DNA from: Cohaesibacter gelatinilyticus
Lineage (GTDB): Bacteria; Pseudomonadota; Alphaproteobacteria; Rhizobiales; Cohaesibacteraceae
Reading direction: 5' to 3'
Length of the DNA: 64,000 bases
Assembly: GCF_900215605.1 (NCBI RefSeq)
Contig: NZ_OBEL01000006.1
Span: forward strand, 186,001-250,000
In this document: positions 11,096-19,468 of the stretch, in pieces
Numbering within the stretch: position 1 is the stretch's first letter
How the letters are laid out: each line of letters starts with the position of its first letter
Program-made: the position numbers and the translations under genes
Notes under the pieces: generated by a model
The model's input: only the letters and a program-made list of their open reading frames with translations
The model's database searches: none
Told to the model about the DNA's origin: nothing

Positions 11096-11697
11096 TCCAT
11101 CCCTCCTCAAATTCATCAAACATCACTGAAAATTCTGCAAAACATCCCACCAATTGGCAATCGGAATAGTCATATTTTGAGGCACCCACCGTCCAAAAGG
11201 TACATGAAATTGCCAAAAGCAGCTTACGTAAAAGAAAGTCATCAATTTCTTTCACCGCTACCCGACCTATAAAATATCAAAGCACCCCAAAAGACAAATA
11301 CGGGCAATTTTCGCACCTGCAGCATAGAAATACTGTCACAAATACTAGAATTTTAACCAATATAATCTCGGAAAGACTTTTACATTCAACTTTTTGAAAT
11401 TTTAGACTCTATTTCATTTGTTGCGACAGCGGTCACGACTAAAGGATGAGGGAATTATACGAAACATTAATTGAATTGATTGCGCCTCTCATTTTAGATC
11501 GGGTCAAGGCCAGCGATGCGGGATTCTGTCTGACAGCCCAATTGCTGGTCGTAACATTCACAAGGTCCGTACAGGGACCCTGGCTCATTGATCAAGCTGA
11601 TCCCAGCGGAGGAACCTGGAATTGGCTCAAGGGCAAAGGTTCAACGGACAACCTGGAACAGGAACCGAATAAACGGTTCTTCACCATGGGGGGAAAC
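11096..11697. promoter_or_regulatory. 602-bp region with the upstream leader of the DUF4212/symporter operon
   Basis: No gene is evident here. From 11446 onward the frame is open into the DUF4212 gene but the encoded residues do not resemble that family, so I read it as untranslated leader. It contains two short hairpins: GGTCC/GGACC near 11563-11580, and GAACCG (11662-11667) with CGGTTC (11674-11679). The second sits just before the GGGGGG ribosome site. The part between 11280 and 11440 is AT-rich and probably holds the promoter. Confidence 0.4.
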
Positions 11698-11961
11698 ATG
11701 GCTGAGAATAATGATTCTGGAAAAGCCTACTGGAAAGCCAACCTCAACCTCATCACCATCTGTCTGGTGATCTGGTTTGTGGTATCTTTCGGTTTTGGGC
11801 TTATTCTTCGTCCTGCTTTGTCAGGTATTTCCGTCGGTGGCACCGACTTGGGCTTCTGGTTCGCCCAGCAGGGATCGATCTACGTATTCCTGGGACTTAT
11901 CTTCTTCTACGCTGTTCGCATGAACGCTATTGACCGCGCCCACGGCGTGTCTGACGACTAA
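11698..11961 (+). CDS. DUF4212 small subunit of sodium:solute symporter
   Basis: This short membrane protein of 87 residues has two transmembrane segments (about LNLITICLVIWFVVSFGFGL and SIYVFLGLIFFYAVRMNAI). DUF4212 proteins are regularly encoded directly before VC_2705-type sodium:solute symporters and are thought to act as an accessory subunit, like YjcH beside ActP. The ATG at 11698 follows GGGGGGAAAC. The symporter gene begins 20 bases downstream. The strongly biased codon use of both genes suggests high expression. Confidence 0.9.
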   Translation: MAENNDSGKAYWKANLNLITICLVIWFVVSFGFGLILRPALSGISVGGTDLGFWFAQQGSIYVFLGLIFFYAVRMNAIDRAHGVSDD

Positions 11962-11981: not shown

Positions 11982-13757
11982 ATGGATCTTCAAACTCTTA
12001 CATATATCGTCGTTGGGGCATCTTTCTTGCTCTATATCGGCATCGCCTTCTGGGCCCGCGCTGGCTCTACCGGTGAATTCTACGCTGCTGGCCGCGGTGT
12101 TCACCCTGTTGCCAACGGTATGGCAACCGCTGCTGACTGGATGTCTGCTGCGTCATTCATCTCCATGGCAGGCCTCATCGCCTTTAACGGCTATGGTGCT
12201 TCCCAGTTTCTGATGGGCTGGACCGGTGGTTACGTACTGCTGGCCATGCTGCTTGCACCTTACTTGCGTAAATTCGGCAAGTTCACCGTGCCTGAGTTCA
12301 TTGGTGACCGCTTCTACTCTTCCACAGCACGTATCGTTGCCGTGGTCTGCCTGATCGTCTGCTCCATCACCTACGTGATTGGTCAGATGAAGGGCGTTGG
12401 TGTTGCATTCTCCCGCTTCCTCGAAGTAGACGCTTCCACCGGCCTTCTGATCGGCACCGGCATCGTGTTCCTGTACGCTGTGCAGGGTGGCATGAAAGGC
12501 ATCACCTACACCCAGATCGCTCAGTACTGCGTTCTGATCCTGGCATACACCGTACCTGCAGTCTTCATCTCCATGGAACTGACCGGTTCTTTCCTGCCAC
12601 AGATCGGCCTGTTTGGTGATCACGCTGCTTCCGGTACCCCACTTCTGACCAAGCTTGATCAGATTGTGACGGATCTCGGATTTAAGGAATATACGGCACA
12701 GTCTTCCAACCCGCTCAACATGTTCATGTACACCATGTCCCTGATGATCGGTACGGCTGGTCTGCCACACGTTATCATCCGTTTCTTCACCGTTCCTAAA
12801 GTGTCTGACGCTCGTTGGTCCGCTGGTTGGGCTCTGGTCTTCATCGCAATCCTCTACACCACCGCTCCTGGCGTTGGCGCAATGGCTCGCATGAACCTGA
12901 TGGACACCATCCAGACCGGTGAAGTTGGCGCTCCTGACGGCAACCTGCAATATGAAGCACGTCCTGACTGGTTCAAGAACTGGGAAACCACTGGTCTTCT
13001 GAAGTTCGAGGACAAGAACGGTGACGGCCGCATTCAGTATTACAACGACAAGAGCAAGGACTTTGCTGCTAAAGCAGAAGGCTTTGGCTGGAAAGGCAAC
13101 GAGCTGAAAGTGGACCGTGACATCATGGTTCTGGCTAACCCTGAAATCGCCAAGCTTCCAAACTGGGTGATTGCCCTGGTTGCTGCTGGTGGTCTGGCTG
13201 CTGCTCTGTCTACTGCTGCCGGTCTCTTGATGGCTATCTCTTCCGCCGTTTCTCACGATCTGATGAAGGGTACCTTCACTCCGGATATCTCTGAGAAGCA
13301 GGAATTGCTCTACGCTCGTATCTCCATGGGTGTTGCCATCGCGATCGCTGCATGGCTTGGACTGAACCCTCCCGGCTTCGCAGCTCAGGTTGTGGCGCTG
13401 GCCTTCGGTCTGGCAGCATCCTCTATCTTCCCTGCACTGATGATGGGTATCTTCTCCAAGCGCATCAACTCCAAGGGCGCAACCCTCGGCATGATCGCTG
13501 GTATCCTGTCCACCCTGCTGTACATCTTCATGTACAAAGGCTGGTTCTTCATCCCAGGCACCAACATGTTGGCTAACACCACTGCCAACCACTTCCTGGG
13601 CATTGCTCCAGAAGCGTTCGGTGCAATCGGTGCCCTGATCAACTTCGCAGTTGCTTACGTAGTGTCCAACGCGACCGAAGAGCCACCGCAAGAGATCCAG
13701 GATCTGGTGGAAAGCATCCGCGTACCATCTGGTGCGGGTGCAGCTGTCGATCACTAA
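11982..13757 (+). CDS. Sodium:solute symporter (VC_2705/ActP-like, SSS family)
   Basis: This 591-residue inner-membrane symporter of the SSF family probably imports acetate or another short carboxylate with Na+. The N-terminal SSF signature region is AAGRGVHPVANGMATAADWM at about residues 36-55. A hydrophilic insert near residues 315-385 contains DKNGDGRIQYYN (about residue 344), an EF-hand-like loop in which the twelfth position is Asn rather than Glu. AGGAACGAGAG precedes the ATG. Codons such as CTG, ATC, GGT and CGT dominate, which marks it as highly expressed; this bias also leaves the opposite strand open. Substrate is inferred from family and the DUF4212 partner. Confidence 0.88.
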   Translation: MDLQTLTYIVVGASFLLYIGIAFWARAGSTGEFYAAGRGVHPVANGMATAADWMSAASFISMAGLIAFNGYGASQFLMGWTGGYVLLAMLLAPYLRKFGKFTVPEFIGDRFYSSTARIVAVVCLIVCSITYVIGQMKGVGVAFSRFLEVDASTGLLIGTGIVFLYAVQGGMKGITYTQIAQYCVLILAYTVPAVFISMELTGSFLPQIGLFGDHAASGTPLLTKLDQIVTDLGFKEYTAQSSNPLNMFMYTMSLMIGTAGLPHVIIRFFTVPKVSDARWSAGWALVFIAILYTTAPGVGAMARMNLMDTIQTGEVGAPDGNLQYEARPDWFKNWETTGLLKFEDKNGDGRIQYYNDKSKDFAAKAEGFGWKGNELKVDRDIMVLANPEIAKLPNWVIALVAAGGLAAALSTAAGLLMAISSAVSHDLMKGTFTPDISEKQELLYARISMGVAIAIAAWLGLNPPGFAAQVVALAFGLAASSIFPALMMGIFSKRINSKGATLGMIAGILSTLLYIFMYKGWFFIPGTNMLANTTANHFLGIAPEAFGAIGALINFAVAYVVSNATEEPPQEIQDLVESIRVPSGAGAAVDH

Positions 13758-13896: not shown

Positions 13897-13946
13897 ACCT
13901 CTGCTATCGAACAATCTGATTGATTTTGATGACCGGGGAGTCTGGC

Positions 13947-15791
13947 ATGACCATTGCCTCTTTTACAGAATTTGCTTCACATCGCCATCCATTTGACCTG
14001 CTTCCCTCAGAACGCCTGCAGGAATTGGCTGCCAGCACCCAAACCAGAACCGTCGCCGCGGAGAAGGTAATTTGCGATGTGGGAGAGAATCTCTCCAGTC
14101 TGTATCTGATTGAAAAAGGCGCTGTTGATCTCATCACGCCAGAAGGCTCACTACTGCTTCACTTGAATGTCGGCAATTGCTTTGGTGAACGGGCCCTGTT
14201 GTCAGATGGCAAGTCCCCGAACAAGGCCGTTGCCAGCGAAGAAACTTCTCTTTTCATCATCCCTGGAGAGGAATTTCAAAACCTGATCAAAAACTATCCA
14301 CCTTTCCATTCTTTCTTCGATAGTTCCTTGGCCAGAAAAGCTCCAACAACACCACAAAACACTGATTCCACAACAAGCCTGATCTCGGTTTCCATCGACA
14401 ATCTGATGACGCCAAACCCCATCACTATTCCGCCATCTGCGACTGTGATGGAGGCGGCACAAATCATGCGAGAGAAAAACATTTCCTGCGTGTTGATCTC
14501 GGAGAGTGACACCCTCACCGGCATTCTCACCACGGGCGATCTCAGTCATCGTGTAGTTGCTGCGGGCCGACCATCAGACACGATGGTTGGCGAAGTCATG
14601 ACATCAAATCCTTTCACCCTGGGGCCGGACGCGCTTGGATTTGATGCCTTGATGGCCATGATGGAGCGTTCCCACACCCATTTGCCAGTGGTTGAGAATG
14701 GAAAACTGGTCGGCATTCTTACAAACACCAATCTGGTACGCCAACAAGCCGTTTCCGCTCCTTTCATCATTCGCGACATCAGCCGCCAGAACAGCTTTGA
14801 AGCCCTGAATGAAATCGTCTCCAAGACACCTCAGATGCTGGCGCAATTGGTCGGTTCTGGTGTGGACGCCCATAACATCGGCCGCATCATCACCAATGTG
14901 ACAGATACCCTGACCCGTCGTCTTGTCACAATGGCAGAAGAGAAATTCGGCCCTGCCCCGGTGCCCTATCTGTGGCTGGCTTGCGGCTCTCAAGGTCGGC
15001 AAGAACAAACCGGCGTTTCCGATCAGGACAATTGTCTGATTTTGGACAATGCCTATCGTGAAGCCGAACATGGTGACTATTTCAAGCAATTTGCCCAATA
15101 TGTCTCGGACGGGCTGGACGCCTGCGGTTACTTCTATTGTCCCGGCGACATGATGGCTACAAATTCACGATGGTGCCAGCCTGCAGATATTTGGCGCGGT
15201 TACTTCAATCATTGGATCGACAAACCCGACCCAATGGCCCAGATGCTGGCCAGCGTCATGTTTGATCTACGCCCCATCTGCGGCAATGAGCTGCTCTTTG
15301 ATGGCATGTATCAGGAAACTTTGGAGAAGGCGCAGAAAAACTCGATCTTCCGCGCGCACATGATTTCCAATTCCCTCAGCCATACACCACCACTAAATCT
15401 CTTCCGTGGCTTTGCTCTCATCAAAAAGGGTGAGCATAAAGACACTGTTGATCTGAAACATAATGGCGTGGTCCCGATCGTGGATCTTGGACGAGCTTAT
15501 GCATTGGAAGCAGCGATCGAGAATGCCAACACACGTGAACGCCTGCTACTGGCGCGCGATGCCAAAGCACTCAGTTCTTCTGGCGCAGGCGATTTGATCG
15601 ATGCTTATGATCTAATCGCCAATATGCGTCTGGAACATCAGGCCAAGCAGATCAGAGAAGGCCAGAAGCCGGATAATTTCATGCCACCTGCCATCCTGTC
15701 AGAGCTGGAACGCAATCACCTGAAAGACGCTTTCATCGTCATCAAGACAATGCAATCTGCTCTTGGCCACAGTCATGGAGCGAATATTTAA
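13947..15791 (+). CDS. Cyclic-nucleotide-fold/CBS/DUF294 nucleotidyltransferase-like protein
   Basis: This 614-residue cytoplasmic protein has four parts: a cNMP-binding fold (about 15-115), two CBS domains (about 148-270), a DUF294 nucleotidyltransferase-like domain with GSQGRQEQ and DQDN (about 340-370), and a DUF294 C-terminal domain (about 460-605). In the phosphate-binding cassette FGERALLSDGKSPNKAVA the usual Arg is missing, so cAMP binding is doubtful. The architecture resembles GlnE/GlnD-like regulators that act on a partner by nucleotidylation, but the target is unknown. Such genes recur beside ActP-type symporters. GGGGAG lies six bases before the ATG. Confidence 0.85.
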   Translation: MTIASFTEFASHRHPFDLLPSERLQELAASTQTRTVAAEKVICDVGENLSSLYLIEKGAVDLITPEGSLLLHLNVGNCFGERALLSDGKSPNKAVASEETSLFIIPGEEFQNLIKNYPPFHSFFDSSLARKAPTTPQNTDSTTSLISVSIDNLMTPNPITIPPSATVMEAAQIMREKNISCVLISESDTLTGILTTGDLSHRVVAAGRPSDTMVGEVMTSNPFTLGPDALGFDALMAMMERSHTHLPVVENGKLVGILTNTNLVRQQAVSAPFIIRDISRQNSFEALNEIVSKTPQMLAQLVGSGVDAHNIGRIITNVTDTLTRRLVTMAEEKFGPAPVPYLWLACGSQGRQEQTGVSDQDNCLILDNAYREAEHGDYFKQFAQYVSDGLDACGYFYCPGDMMATNSRWCQPADIWRGYFNHWIDKPDPMAQMLASVMFDLRPICGNELLFDGMYQETLEKAQKNSIFRAHMISNSLSHTPPLNLFRGFALIKKGEHKDTVDLKHNGVVPIVDLGRAYALEAAIENANTRERLLLARDAKALSSSGAGDLIDAYDLIANMRLEHQAKQIREGQKPDNFMPPAILSELERNHLKDAFIVIKTMQSALGHSHGANI

Positions 15792-16040: not shown

Positions 16041-16553
16041 ATGCTTTTCAATCTTCTAGGCACCTTCGTCGCTGGCATCGGCGCAGCAGGCATCATAATC
16101 CTGTTGTATAAATATATTCTGCGCATACCACGTCCCAAAGCCGCTATTCCGGCTGCAGCCGGTGCCATGATGATCCTCTTCCAGGTCTTTCTGGATTATG
16201 GTTGGTTCTCTCGTGCAACCGCTGATTTCGAGGGCGATCTGGTGGTTATCTCCACTTTTGAAGGCAAAAGCTTGCTCCAACCACTTTCTTACGTCATTCC
16301 GCGTACAGATCGTTTCATTGCACTCGAAGTTGCAACTCTCAAGGAACATGAAAGCTTGCCCGGCATAAAATTGGGTACCCTTCATATCATCGCCCGCGAT
16401 GCCCCCAATGGTCAGCGCAAACAATTGTTCGATTGCATCAACAACAAACGCGCCGATATCAGCCCTGACTTGTCTCTGACTGCAGACGATCTACAATCCA
16501 AAGCCAAATGGCTGGATATGCCCACAGGATGGAGCACCGCTGCCTGCAAATAG
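16041..16553 (+). CDS. Membrane protein of unknown function in the symporter/sensor cluster
   Basis: I do not recognise the family. The 170-residue protein has two N-terminal hydrophobic segments (about residues 2-25 and 36-52) followed by a soluble domain of about 110 residues that begins near GWFSRATADFEGDLVVIST. GGAGAC precedes the ATG at a good spacing. It lies between the DUF294 gene and the receiver/sensor genes on the same strand, which suggests involvement in the same signalling process; this is inference from position only. Confidence 0.6.
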   Translation: MLFNLLGTFVAGIGAAGIIILLYKYILRIPRPKAAIPAAAGAMMILFQVFLDYGWFSRATADFEGDLVVISTFEGKSLLQPLSYVIPRTDRFIALEVATLKEHESLPGIKLGTLHIIARDAPNGQRKQLFDCINNKRADISPDLSLTADDLQSKAKWLDMPTGWSTAACK

Positions 16554-16880
16554 GGAAATTACCTACAACCTTGGACTAATTAAAACTGAAAAATCAAAGG
16601 CTACCTCCCAAAACTAGGAGCAATGGCCAATAGCTTTTCCTATCAAAAAACGTCATAATCATGCCCAGACTATGGCAATGTCTTTTGATCAAGCGCAAAG
16701 CCTTATCACTCATCAGGCCTTATCCTGATTGCATAAATGCTGGTTTTCGGAAGTCGTTTTCGGCCGTTTTTAATTGCGAAGTTTCATCTCCGCAAACTCA
16801 TTCTACCGAGCGGCAGAACGTTTGGACTCTGCATATTATGATAGACATTGGCACATATGGCATCTGGGAGGAGCGCCACT
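16554..16880. other. 327-bp intergenic region before the receiver gene
   Basis: No gene is supported here; an 82-codon open frame at 16661-16909 has no ribosome site and no recognisable features. It presumably carries the promoter of the receiver/sensor-exonuclease pair, but I see no clear operator. Confidence 0.4.
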
Positions 16881-17252
16881 ATGACCAAATCCATTTTGGT
16901 GGTGGATGACGAAACATCCATCAATTTCGCATTAGAGCATTTGATGAAATCCGAAGGCTATAAGGTTGCTACTGCGCATGATGGCAACGAGGCCATTGAT
17001 TGCGTTTGTCAGACCCATCCGGACCTCATTCTGCTGGATGTCTCCCTGCCCCATAAAGATGGTTATGAAATTTGTCAGGCACTGCGTGCAGATACCACCA
17101 CTCAGAATATCAAAATCATCATGATGAGCGCTCGCAGCCGCGACATCGAGATCGAGAAAGGACTGGCAATGGGCGCAAATGCCTATCTCACCAAACCTTT
17201 CTCGCTGGGTAAGGTTACCCAGACAGTCCGGGATATTCTGGCGCAAGCCTGA
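16881..17252 (+). CDS. Stand-alone receiver (CheY-like response regulator)
   Basis: This protein of about 123 residues consists only of a receiver domain: the acidic pair VVDDE near residues 7-11, the phospho-acceptor Asp in LILLDVSLP (about residue 53), the Ser/Thr position in IIMMSARS and the Lys in YLTKPF. There is no output domain, so it must act through protein contacts. The ATG at 16881 has GGAGGAG seven bases upstream. The sensor-exonuclease gene follows 77 bases later, making that protein the obvious partner, although its kinase core looks inactive. Confidence 0.88.
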   Translation: MTKSILVVDDETSINFALEHLMKSEGYKVATAHDGNEAIDCVCQTHPDLILLDVSLPHKDGYEICQALRADTTTQNIKIIMMSARSRDIEIEKGLAMGANAYLTKPFSLGKVTQTVRDILAQA

Positions 17253-17329: not shown

Positions 17330-19468
17330 ATGATTGAACGCCTCAGCCTGCGGCTCCGCATATTTCTATTCTTCGCCTTCATTGGCCTCGCCTCTTGTGC
17401 CATCATCGTTGCCTCTCTCTATTTCGCTCTTGGTCGCATTGGCCCAGAGGCAACACCACATCTGGTATTGTTTGGTGGTATTTCCTGTTTTGCCATCCTG
17501 TTGCTCAATGGATATGTCTGGCAGAAATTCGATCTCAATGTTGCCAACCCGATCGATATGATCGTCAAGGATGTGCGCACATTGGTCCATGCAGGCGCTC
17601 AACAGGATCTGAATTCCGAAACCGGAAAATATCTTGGCTTTCTCAATCCCGCCATTCGCGAAATTTCCCAGGCCTTGGTAGAAGCAAGAGAGGAAACAGA
17701 TAAGCAGGTTTCAGAGGCCACAGCATTGGCCAATCGTCAGAAGCGCCGTCTGGAAACCGTTCTTCAGGATCTTGATCAGGGCGTTCTGATCTGCAATCTG
17801 GAAAACAAGATCCTGCTTTACAACAAGCGTGCCCTGAATATCCTGCATGTCTCAGGCGAACTGGGCCTTGGTCGAACACTTTTCTCTGTTGTCTCAGCAG
17901 CCCCTTTTCGCCATGCACTGGACCGTCTACACAACCGATTTGAAGAAGGCCGCCACAAGCGTCACAAGGAAGGCCTCTCAACAATGGTAATCGGCGCCAC
18001 AGCCGACGGGGGTCATACCCTGCAAGGCAAGGTGACACTCATCGTCAATACAGAAGAAAATCTCGCTACCGGCTATACAGTCACCTTTGAGGATATCACC
18101 CATCAACTGGCCGAAAATGTAGAGCGAGACCGCCTGCTCCATCAGGCAATGATGGAGCTACGTCATCCTGCCGCCAATTTGCAAGCAACAGCAGAAATGC
18201 TGGCAGGTGATTTCAATCTGGATGCAGACACCCGCAAAAACTTCGAAAAGATTCTGGTAAAGGAAACACATTCACTTTCGGCCAGCATCGAAGCCATGGA
18301 TAACAAATCTCATCAACTCATGGCTGGTGCCTGGCCCATGTCAGATGTATATTCTTCCTCACTTTTCAATTGCATATTGCGCCGCAATGCATCCGAGGAT
18401 CTGACGCTGACCTGCGAGTTTGTCGGTACACCGGTCTGGCTACATTGTGATAGTGTCACCATTGTCGAGTTGATCGAATTTGTCATGCGCAAGGTCGCCA
18501 GCCAAACAGGCCTGCGTGTCTTCCAACTATCCGCCAATCGCACAGGACGCAAAATCTATATCGATCTCTACTGGCATGGTGAAATGGTCACCATCTCCCA
18601 AATCGATAGCTGGCTCGATGAACCGCTGGACGCTGATCTGGGCGAGATCACTGGACGCGATGTACTGGATCGCCACAAGACTGATTTCTGGTGCACAAAA
18701 ACGCCGGATGGCACCGTTCATCTACGCCTCCCCTTGACGCCAGCTCGCGATCATCATGAAGATGACATCGAAGTTGAACGAGAAATCATACCGGAACGTC
18801 TGGATTTCTATGATTTTGATCTGATGGAACGAACCGACCTCTCTGATATCGAGGACACCCCCCTGCGCGAACTGACCTTCGTGGTATTCGACACGGAAAC
18901 CACAGGACTGGAGCCTTCAAATGGTGATGAGATGATTTCCATCGCAGGCGTTCGCATTGTCAATGGACGTATCATGAGGGGCGAAAGCTTTGATCAATAC
19001 ATCCATCCGGGTCGCTCCATCCCGGCCGCCTCTACTGCAATCCATCACATCACCAACGAGATGGTGGCCGATGCACCACCTGTCGAAGAGGTTCTCCCCA
19101 AATTTCATTCCTATGTCAGTGATGCGGTTCTGGTAGCCCACAATGCCGCCTTCGATATGAAATTCCTATCTCTCAAGGAAGCTCAGACAGGTCTGAAATT
19201 CTCCAACCCTGTGCTGGACACCGTCTTGTTGGCCGCCCATCTTCAGGGTCAAACCGCAAGTCTGACGCTGGACACACTGGCAGAGCAGTTCGGTATCGAA
19301 ATTCCGCCAGAGGTGCGTCACACTGCCCTCGGTGACTCTCTCGCTACAGCAGAAGTTCTCCTGCGTCTGATTGACCTCCTGGAGGCAGGTGGCATCAACA
19401 CTCTACGCGATGCCGTCGAGGTGGAAAAAAAAGCAGCAGCCATCCGCAAACAGCAAGCCAAGTATTAG
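17330..19468 (+). CDS. Membrane sensor with degenerate histidine kinase fused to DEDDh 3'-5' exonuclease
   Basis: This 712-residue fusion has two transmembrane segments (about 7-32 and 42-63), a coiled-coil linker, a PAS-like domain (about 138-250), a kinase-like region (about 265-470) and a DnaQ-type exonuclease domain (about 515-690). In the H-box position the sequence reads MMELRHPAANL: Met replaces the phospho-acceptor His, and the ATPase N- and G-boxes are not recognisable. By contrast the exonuclease motifs are all intact: FDTETTGL, HNAAFDMKF and RHTALGDSLATAE. The nuclease is thus predicted active (RNA or DNA substrate unknown) and tethered to a membrane sensor. Separate exonuclease and DUF294 genes beside ActP-type symporters are known, for example PA3232-PA3235 of Pseudomonas aeruginosa (recalled, not checked). 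Confidence 0.85.
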   Translation: MIERLSLRLRIFLFFAFIGLASCAIIVASLYFALGRIGPEATPHLVLFGGISCFAILLLNGYVWQKFDLNVANPIDMIVKDVRTLVHAGAQQDLNSETGKYLGFLNPAIREISQALVEAREETDKQVSEATALANRQKRRLETVLQDLDQGVLICNLENKILLYNKRALNILHVSGELGLGRTLFSVVSAAPFRHALDRLHNRFEEGRHKRHKEGLSTMVIGATADGGHTLQGKVTLIVNTEENLATGYTVTFEDITHQLAENVERDRLLHQAMMELRHPAANLQATAEMLAGDFNLDADTRKNFEKILVKETHSLSASIEAMDNKSHQLMAGAWPMSDVYSSSLFNCILRRNASEDLTLTCEFVGTPVWLHCDSVTIVELIEFVMRKVASQTGLRVFQLSANRTGRKIYIDLYWHGEMVTISQIDSWLDEPLDADLGEITGRDVLDRHKTDFWCTKTPDGTVHLRLPLTPARDHHEDDIEVEREIIPERLDFYDFDLMERTDLSDIEDTPLRELTFVVFDTETTGLEPSNGDEMISIAGVRIVNGRIMRGESFDQYIHPGRSIPAASTAIHHITNEMVADAPPVEEVLPKFHSYVSDAVLVAHNAAFDMKFLSLKEAQTGLKFSNPVLDTVLLAAHLQGQTASLTLDTLAEQFGIEIPPEVRHTALGDSLATAEVLLRLIDLLEAGGINTLRDAVEVEKKAAAIRKQQAKY

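Follow-up and report, generated by a model that had tools for sequence, protein, structure and literature searches.

A Kinase-Dead Membrane Sensor Joined to a DEDDh Exonuclease: A Possible Response Regulator Receptor and Candidate Eraser of Nucleotidyl Modification

The pseudo-histidine kinase DivL of Caulobacter combines a histidine-kinase fold and a PAS sensor with a replaced acceptor His, and has a single-domain response regulator as its partner. Its kinase core has lost activity and become a sensor that binds the phosphorylated regulator, DivK~P (PMC4211667), and it acts on the kinase CckA (PMC9430884). Here, we describe a gene in Cohaesibacter gelatinilyticus whose product has such a fold, a PAS domain, and a replaced acceptor His, and which has a single-domain response regulator gene as its neighbor. 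It lies in a 64,000-nucleotide stretch of its genome (assembly GCF_900215605.1, contig NZ_OBEL01000006.1, positions 186,001 to 250,000 of the forward strand) that we call “the window.” The window protein, 712 residues read from an ATG start, differs from DivL in that its output would be a covalently attached DEDDh exonuclease and in that its family carries Trp in place of the ATP-site Asp. The two are linked by a sequence-profile match (a profile of 58 relatives against DivL 4q20, E 2e-6) and by a fold match (E 3e-9).

The exonuclease has a precedent of its own in Pseudomonas. There, the genes for enzymes of the PP_0353/PA3232 type likewise share an operon, under MxtR/ErdR control, with a gene for a CBS-domain (DUF294) protein; in P. 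aeruginosa PAO1 the exonuclease-DUF294 pair adjoins actP and yjcH, and in P. putida it lies near glcB, not actP. Unlike the window protein, this type has been described with no membrane sensor, pseudo-kinase, or dedicated response regulator. The symporter-STAC histidine kinase CrbS/MxtR belongs to the same physiological setting and, with its motif, is encoded within 5 kb of the exonuclease in 23 of the 121 loci compared here, but it keeps that motif intact as SHELRTPL or THELRTPL (25 of the 27 listed) and acts on a transcription factor, CrbR/ErdR. Finally, GlnE and GlnD, which serve the modification of glutamine synthetase and PII, likewise pair a GlnE-type nucleotidyltransferase fold with a removing activity. 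GlnE removes AMP via a second nucleotidyltransferase domain and GlnD removes its modification with an HD domain, whereas the supposed remover here is a DEDDh exonuclease.

Judged by its residues, the window protein is a histidine-kinase fold that is kinase-dead. The AlphaFold2 model (mean pLDDT 84.5, pTM 0.58) contains a hairpin, an ATPase-like domain, and the exonuclease, and Foldseek matches it to WalK, VicK, other kinases, and DivL, so that the DHp-CA fold is present; the exonuclease matches that of PolC (9qpc, root-mean-square deviation 1.5 Å). Pfam found neither HisKA nor HATPase at E up to 1, in the whole protein or in residues 250-487 alone; the NCBIfam WalK kinase model covers residues 112-386 (E 1e-13) with 50 bits, far below its cut-off of 725; and phmmer returned a borderline match to the solved histidine kinase 4u7n (E 0.06). 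The profile of 58 relatives does match VicK (4i5s, E 7e-22, profile positions 52-472). A profile-profile alignment (probability 98.7%) set the family against CrbS-type kinases with intact motifs; read by eye, it brings the H-box, N-box, and G-boxes into register and shows a replacement in each.

These replacements belong to the family. Its members came as 161 rows, of which 124 were non-redundant; we used the 121 with at least 700 bases upstream, the window's included. The DHp hairpin is intact in 97 of the non-redundant members (again with the window's). In these, the acceptor column holds no His at all, but Glu in 43, Asp in 28, and other residues in 26, and the Asp of the DxGxG motif is Trp (Trp415) in 97/97. 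Inside the window's genus the acceptor column varies among Met, Ile, Val, Leu, and Ser. The 97 include records from the Alphaproteobacteria, Gammaproteobacteria, and Nitrospirota, and recent gene decay is ruled out by a kinase-dead state common to them all. As a side observation, the Glu or Asp found at the acceptor place in 71 of the 97 may imitate a residue that is charged or phosphorylated.

That the protein is still an active kinase, of an unconventional sort with a different acceptor residue, is highly improbable. A histidine-kinase fold is predicted and His449 is invariant (97/97), but this His falls in the CA domain, where it aligns with the conserved histidine region of ordinary kinases and not with the acceptor, and the ATP-binding motifs are replaced; we rejected the candidate on these two grounds.

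The exonuclease domain, in contrast to the kinase half, is intact as far as its residues tell. RNase_T (PF00929) covers residues 518-677 (E 2e-35), and the five catalytic residues (D521, E523, D609, H664, and D669), spread across three Exo motifs, are each kept in 121/121 family members. The nearest relatives of the domain are DNA/RNA exonucleases of the DnaQ/PolC type, and a chance resemblance to DnaQ is ruled out by the RNase_T match together with the PolC fold match. At the other end of the protein, hydropathy places two transmembrane segments at about residues 5-38 and 41-64, and residues 42-126 match chemoreceptors in a profile search, hence the label “HAMP-like.”

An earlier note on this DNA, made from the sequence before any search, had read much of this correctly: two membrane helices (hydropathy and AlphaFold2 helices agree), a PAS-like domain (PF00989), a Met at the phospho-His place in MMELRHP (Met275), N- and G-boxes that could not be made out (they are replaced in the CrbS-type alignment), lost kinase residues, and an intact DEDDh nuclease. 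It had named a complete ATP-binding kinase with another conserved His as a finding that would refute its reading; profile search and structure prediction gave instead a histidine-kinase fold with replaced motifs and an invariant His449 that does not align with the acceptor. Its phrase “a sensor that has lost its kinase” holds for the residues, but what it describes is shared by all 97 members rather than being the decay of one gene.

The dead kinase half keeps company with a response regulator. Of the 97 loci in which 60 or more residues of the DHp hairpin align (a threshold picked after seeing the data, in a gap between 57 and 65), 92 encode one on the same strand and no more than 1.5 kb away, whereas it adjoins the gene in 0 of the 24 loci with a short or missing hairpin; moving the threshold between 40 and 70 residues leaves the direction of the association unchanged. 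Restricted to loci that keep the CA domain, the comparison is 92/97 with the hairpin versus 0/10 without it. The regulator lies upstream in 91 of the 92, the median gap being 24.5 bases, and its phospho-Asp and its Lys are both kept in 92/92. Because a response regulator with an intact phospho-Asp is co-inherited with the dead kinase half, the latter is most likely a receptor for it and not an inert remnant. By analogy with DivK and DivL, the dead DHp is probably a docking site for the phosphorylated regulator.

Covariation between the DHp hairpin and the regulator was calculated from 92 pairs (about 52 effective sequences). The top pair joins DHp 287 to regulator position 28, and helix 1 of the regulator supplies 17 of the top 50 pairs, where 5.5 are expected. 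Interface positions were those of the mutants named in the titles of structures 4jas and 4jav, and a wide set adds flanking positions of our own choosing; only 8 of 6709 shifted placements, and none of 200 shuffled pairings, scored as high as this wide set.

Alternatively, the kinase-like part could be a mere scaffold that passes PAS signals on to the exonuclease by a dimer twist, with the regulator a relic of an ancestral kinase-regulator pair and without a role. That the histidine kinase-like part is dispensable is apparent from the 24 loci with neither an intact DHp nor a regulator, and the genes of an old pair may remain linked by inertia. Inertia, however, leaves unexplained both the conservation of the regulator's residues and its absence from all 24 of those loci, including the 10 that still have a CA domain, and we consider the scaffold distinctly unlikely.

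If the regulator points to how the exonuclease may be gated, its closest genetic partner bears on what it may act upon. Across 249 Pseudomonadota genomes, 96 of which have DUF294, we took the best 102 exonuclease rows of a longer list: 36 of the 38 matches of at least 140 bits lie within 7 kb of DUF294, versus 2 of the 64 lower-scoring ones, this threshold too having been picked with the data in view. G526 is one of the two exceptions; the other is G521, in which about 14 kb separate two parts of the operon. Within the same 102 rows, all 37 genomes with an exonuclease of at least 140 bits have DUF294. For the sensor-exonuclease itself, DUF294 is found within 7 kb in 99 of the 121 loci, and where tblastn found none nearby, 12/12 checked genomes have it elsewhere (10 of these are among the 22 loci negative by profile; the other two, L064 and L110, were negative by tblastn), so that the two genes are separated in those lineages, which include Azospirillum.

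The converse holds as well. From the same genomes we hand-picked, not in strict order, 20 DUF294 loci (L195-L214) with no sensor-exonuclease within 7 kb, several of them for a nearby DUF4212 gene and with the exonuclease neighbors unseen at the time of choice; 19 of the 20 have another DEDDh exonuclease next door, mostly of 210-240 residues. The remaining one is G526, which has a sensor-exonuclease elsewhere. Together with the literature, these loci confirm the statement in the earlier note that DnaQ-like exonucleases sit beside DUF294 and ActP-type genes in Pseudomonas. In seven genomes (G021, G032, G035, G038, G039, G097, and G229) a single open reading frame joins exonuclease, CBS, and DUF294. 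The pair thus occurs as neighbors, as a fusion, or with the exonuclease carried on a membrane sensor, with or without a pseudo-kinase.

As for the transferase, a GS...DxD pattern is present in 139/139 DUF294 open reading frames. The predicted fold of the window's DUF294 protein (residues 11-623, pLDDT 89.2) matches first GlnE (1v4a) and DrrA (6yx5), with TM-scores by whole query of 0.36 and 0.40; 3k7d is also among the best matches (0.34-0.40 across the three), and the next are to its CBS and cNMP domains. Since exonuclease and DUF294 are also found in one polypeptide, we regard DUF294, rather than the symporter, as the closest partner of the nuclease. It follows that the enzyme is no less likely to hydrolyze a nucleotidylated product than to degrade free nucleic acid. 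The earlier note's suggestion of signal-gated hydrolysis of nucleic acid or nucleotides at the membrane is supported in part, as to the membrane protein and its intact exonuclease. Transferase and exonuclease may share one substrate, a step we take tentatively, and that the modification is protein AMPylation in particular is doubtful.

The same pairing could be explained by RNA decay, gated by the regulator at the membrane and adjusting organic-acid metabolism, if DUF294 tails or tags the 3' end of RNA and the exonuclease trims it; the targets would be particular transcripts or small RNAs. The nearest relatives of the domain would fit, the pairing would equally be accounted for if one enzyme lengthened RNA 3' ends and the other cut them back, and the authors of PMC9927547 suggest mRNA degradation for pp_0353. 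We nonetheless judge this unlikely: protein AMPylases head the 50 fold matches listed for the DUF294 model, which include no poly(A) polymerase, Pfam gave no RNA-binding domain in either protein, and linkage to one nucleotidyltransferase and one transporter type is narrow for a general nuclease.

Less probable again is a second-messenger module, in which DUF294 would make a linear or cyclic oligonucleotide, the DEDDh domain would degrade it, and the CBS and cNMP-binding domains would read it. Such a module would suit the nucleotidyltransferase motif found in 139/139 and the fact that the protein also carries a cNMP-binding domain and CBS domains, and short oligonucleotides are degraded by some DEDDh enzymes, Orn for one. 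The fold match, however, is to the GlnE/DrrA group, which is protein-modifying, and DUF294_C has been grouped with the C-terminal domains of GlnD and GlnE (PMC3710099).

We tentatively favor the reading that the window protein is a membrane-anchored, regulator-gated phosphodiesterase countering the DUF294 transferase on a component of monocarboxylate uptake. The response regulator encoded just upstream would be phosphorylated by a different kinase, for example, a symporter-kinase of the CrbS/MxtR type, and would dock on the dead DHp hairpin; its binding and a PAS signal would switch the exonuclease on or off. The DUF294 transferase would add a nucleotide (AMP, by fold analogy with GlnE), and the DEDDh domain would remove it. 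The modified target would be part of monocarboxylate uptake, whether the VC_2705/ActP-type symporter, the DUF4212 subunit, or an associated protein, and its modified state would be the less active one. We infer these steps with support that falls from regulator docking to the shared substrate to the uptake-system target. Taken as a whole, a reversible protein-nucleotidylation switch on solute uptake, with DUF294 as “writer” and the DEDDh domain as “eraser,” gated by a dead kinase turned receptor for the phosphorylated regulator, is a rather doubtful proposition.

In P. putida, the exonuclease (pp_0353) mutant is slow on pyruvate, the DUF294 (pp_0354) mutant is not, and the transporter mutant is like the pp_0353 mutant. 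This asymmetry is as expected from an inhibiting writer and a restoring eraser, the argument being carried over from another species, one with the exonuclease but without the sensor. There is also precedent for a nuclease in the role, deAMPylase activity having been demonstrated for RNase Z (PMC12663964).

Several points weigh against this reading. Deletion of pp_0354 is without phenotype; RNase T, itself a DEDDh enzyme, did not deAMPylate a SelO substrate (PMC12663964); deletion of the P. aeruginosa symporter PA3234 caused no growth defect on propionate (PMC9765439); and in the literature searched we found no biochemistry for any member of this architecture. An intact CrbS-type kinase is close by in only the 23 loci given above. 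DUF294 is absent within 7 kb, by profile, from 22 of the 121 loci, and from 9 of the 53 with at least 7 kb on both sides. Both the 60-residue and the 140-bit thresholds were, as noted, chosen after the fact. Five loci (L057, L112, L127, L132, and L185) have an intact DHp and no adjacent regulator. On a tree of the exonuclease (quick method), the DHp state changes 7 times and the regulator state 12 times, and only 3 independent pairs rest on well-supported branches (7 on the best tree; sign test p 0.25); the 3 all agree in most pairings but are too few for significance alone. In the covariation analysis, the narrower interface set is weaker, its score being equaled in 55 of 6709 shifts and 3 of 200 shuffles, and the score of the top pair also recurs in 3 of 200 shuffled pairings. 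The signal may partly reflect the split of two large clades (Ala-Ser versus Leu/Val/Thr-Ala), and because of such clade effects we keep covariation as supporting evidence only.

Table 1. Features of the sensor-exonuclease gene and its neighbors, with positions in the window
Feature	Position	Strand	Basis
DUF4212 small symporter subunit, domain in C-terminal half	11446..11961	+	PF13937 E 1e-32; TIGR03647
VC_2705-family sodium:solute symporter	11982..13757	+	TIGR03648 E 3e-255
cNMP-binding, CBS, DUF294, DUF294_C nucleotidyltransferase with GS...DxD motif	13920..15791	+	Pfam, motif, model
Small membrane protein, 170 residues, conserved in operon	16041..16553	+	tblastn in related loci
Single-domain response regulator; acidic pair, phospho-Asp, and Lys intact	16848..17252	+	PF00072 E 5e-29
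Sensor-exonuclease gene, TM-TM-(HAMP-like)-PAS-pseudo-DHp-pseudo-CA-DEDDh (TM, transmembrane segment)	17330..19468	+	Open reading frame, Pfam, profile search, AlphaFold2, Foldseek
Transmembrane segment 1, about residues 9-31	17354..17422	+	Hydropathy; model helix 7-37
Transmembrane segment 2, about residues 45-63	17462..17518	+	Hydropathy; model helix 39-88
PAS domain, residues 140-256	17747..18097	+	Pfam PF00989 E 4e-5
DHp-like two-helix hairpin, residues 257-334	18098..18331	+	AlphaFold2 helices 257-292 / 299-334
Met275 at His position of DHp hairpin	18152-18154	+	H-box MMELRHP
Pseudo-ATPase (CA-like) domain, residues 338-471; Trp415 for DxGxG Asp; N-/G2-boxes degenerate	18341..18742	+	Profile alignment, model
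Predicted DEDDh 3'-5' exonuclease domain, residues 516-686, full catalytic set	18875..19387	+	PF00929, PolC fold match, conservation

The gene order in the window (Table 1) is DUF4212, VC_2705-family symporter, cNMP-CBS-DUF294, small membrane protein, single-domain response regulator, and sensor-exonuclease; translation of the regulator more probably begins at the ATG at 16881 (MTKS). Using the window proteins as tblastn queries in the best 80 loci, we found the regulator in 69, DUF294 in 61, the symporter in 49, the small protein in 43, and DUF4212 in 36, counted anywhere in the available stretch, contig ends included, with some symporter matches only partial and lying in the symporter-kinase. 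Random neighbors, which the earlier note had named as a possible refutation of its reading, are ruled out by these counts, by the exonuclease-DUF294 linkage, and by the other DUF294 loci. The symporter, whose co-occurrence the earlier note had proposed to survey, is among these neighbors in 49 of the best 80, but the closest partner is DUF294, which is also found fused.

The small protein has no Pfam, NCBIfam, or meaningful Protein Data Bank match. By eye, it begins with two hydrophobic N-terminal stretches followed by ~110 residues, and a counterpart also adjoins DUF4212 and the symporter in locus L213. In other lineages, the regulator and the sensor-exonuclease adjoin a symporter-kinase of the CrbS/MxtR type (at least 27 open reading frames, 25 of the 27 listed with the HELRTP motif). 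The window's own genome has one putative CrbS-like symporter-kinase, located elsewhere, on contig C1.

Full-length sensor-exonucleases were found in 17 of the 18 genomes of the window's genus searched, the window's own included, and in the 18th the gene is in split open reading frames. At the level of the class, a match with E no higher than 1e-45 was found in 26 of 289 genomes, counting shorter and fused forms. In the wider collection (genome_contigs), at least 562 of at least 594 pattern matches also match the query at E<=1e-3 and may include plain DnaQ-like genes; the best 80 of these all align over at least residues 119-691. The records of those 80 come from the Rhodospirillales, Azospirillum, Rhodobacteraceae, Stappia, Bradyrhizobium, Gammaproteobacteria, Nitrospirota, and others, and many are metagenome-assembled.

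A few loci are irregular. In L037 (genome G016), the sensor-exonuclease and its neighbors are spread over several overlapping open reading frames, which suggests frameshifts, real or from sequencing. L035, a second place in genome G006, carries a regulator and a transmembrane-PAS part near-identical to those of the full copy L034; it breaks off at the start of the DHp, and by eye the frame downstream looks transposase-like. In L162 and L163, the ATPase-like region is kept in the alignment with only 21 DHp residues, and the transmembrane and PAS parts have no profile match.

In the literature searched, with most subscription papers outside its scope, we found no description of a sensor-exonuclease fusion or of a DUF294-exonuclease switch. 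If such a switch exists, it would be, to our knowledge, the first case of a DnaQ-type exonuclease as a de-nucleotidylating enzyme in signaling, and the first two-component pathway we know of with removal of a nucleotidyl modification as its output. Automatic names warrant caution here; the window protein resembles models of both a WalK-type kinase and DNA polymerase III epsilon and is probably neither. It would add one more to the few histidine kinases that have become receptors, and it is a candidate eraser of a nucleotidyl modification. The DUF294-exonuclease operon of P. putida is a target of the acetate regulator MxtR/ErdR, and the architecture described here offers a testable account of the phenotype reported for it. 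Taken together, these data suggest a switch, so far undescribed, that acts on how acetate, pyruvate, and other small acids are used.

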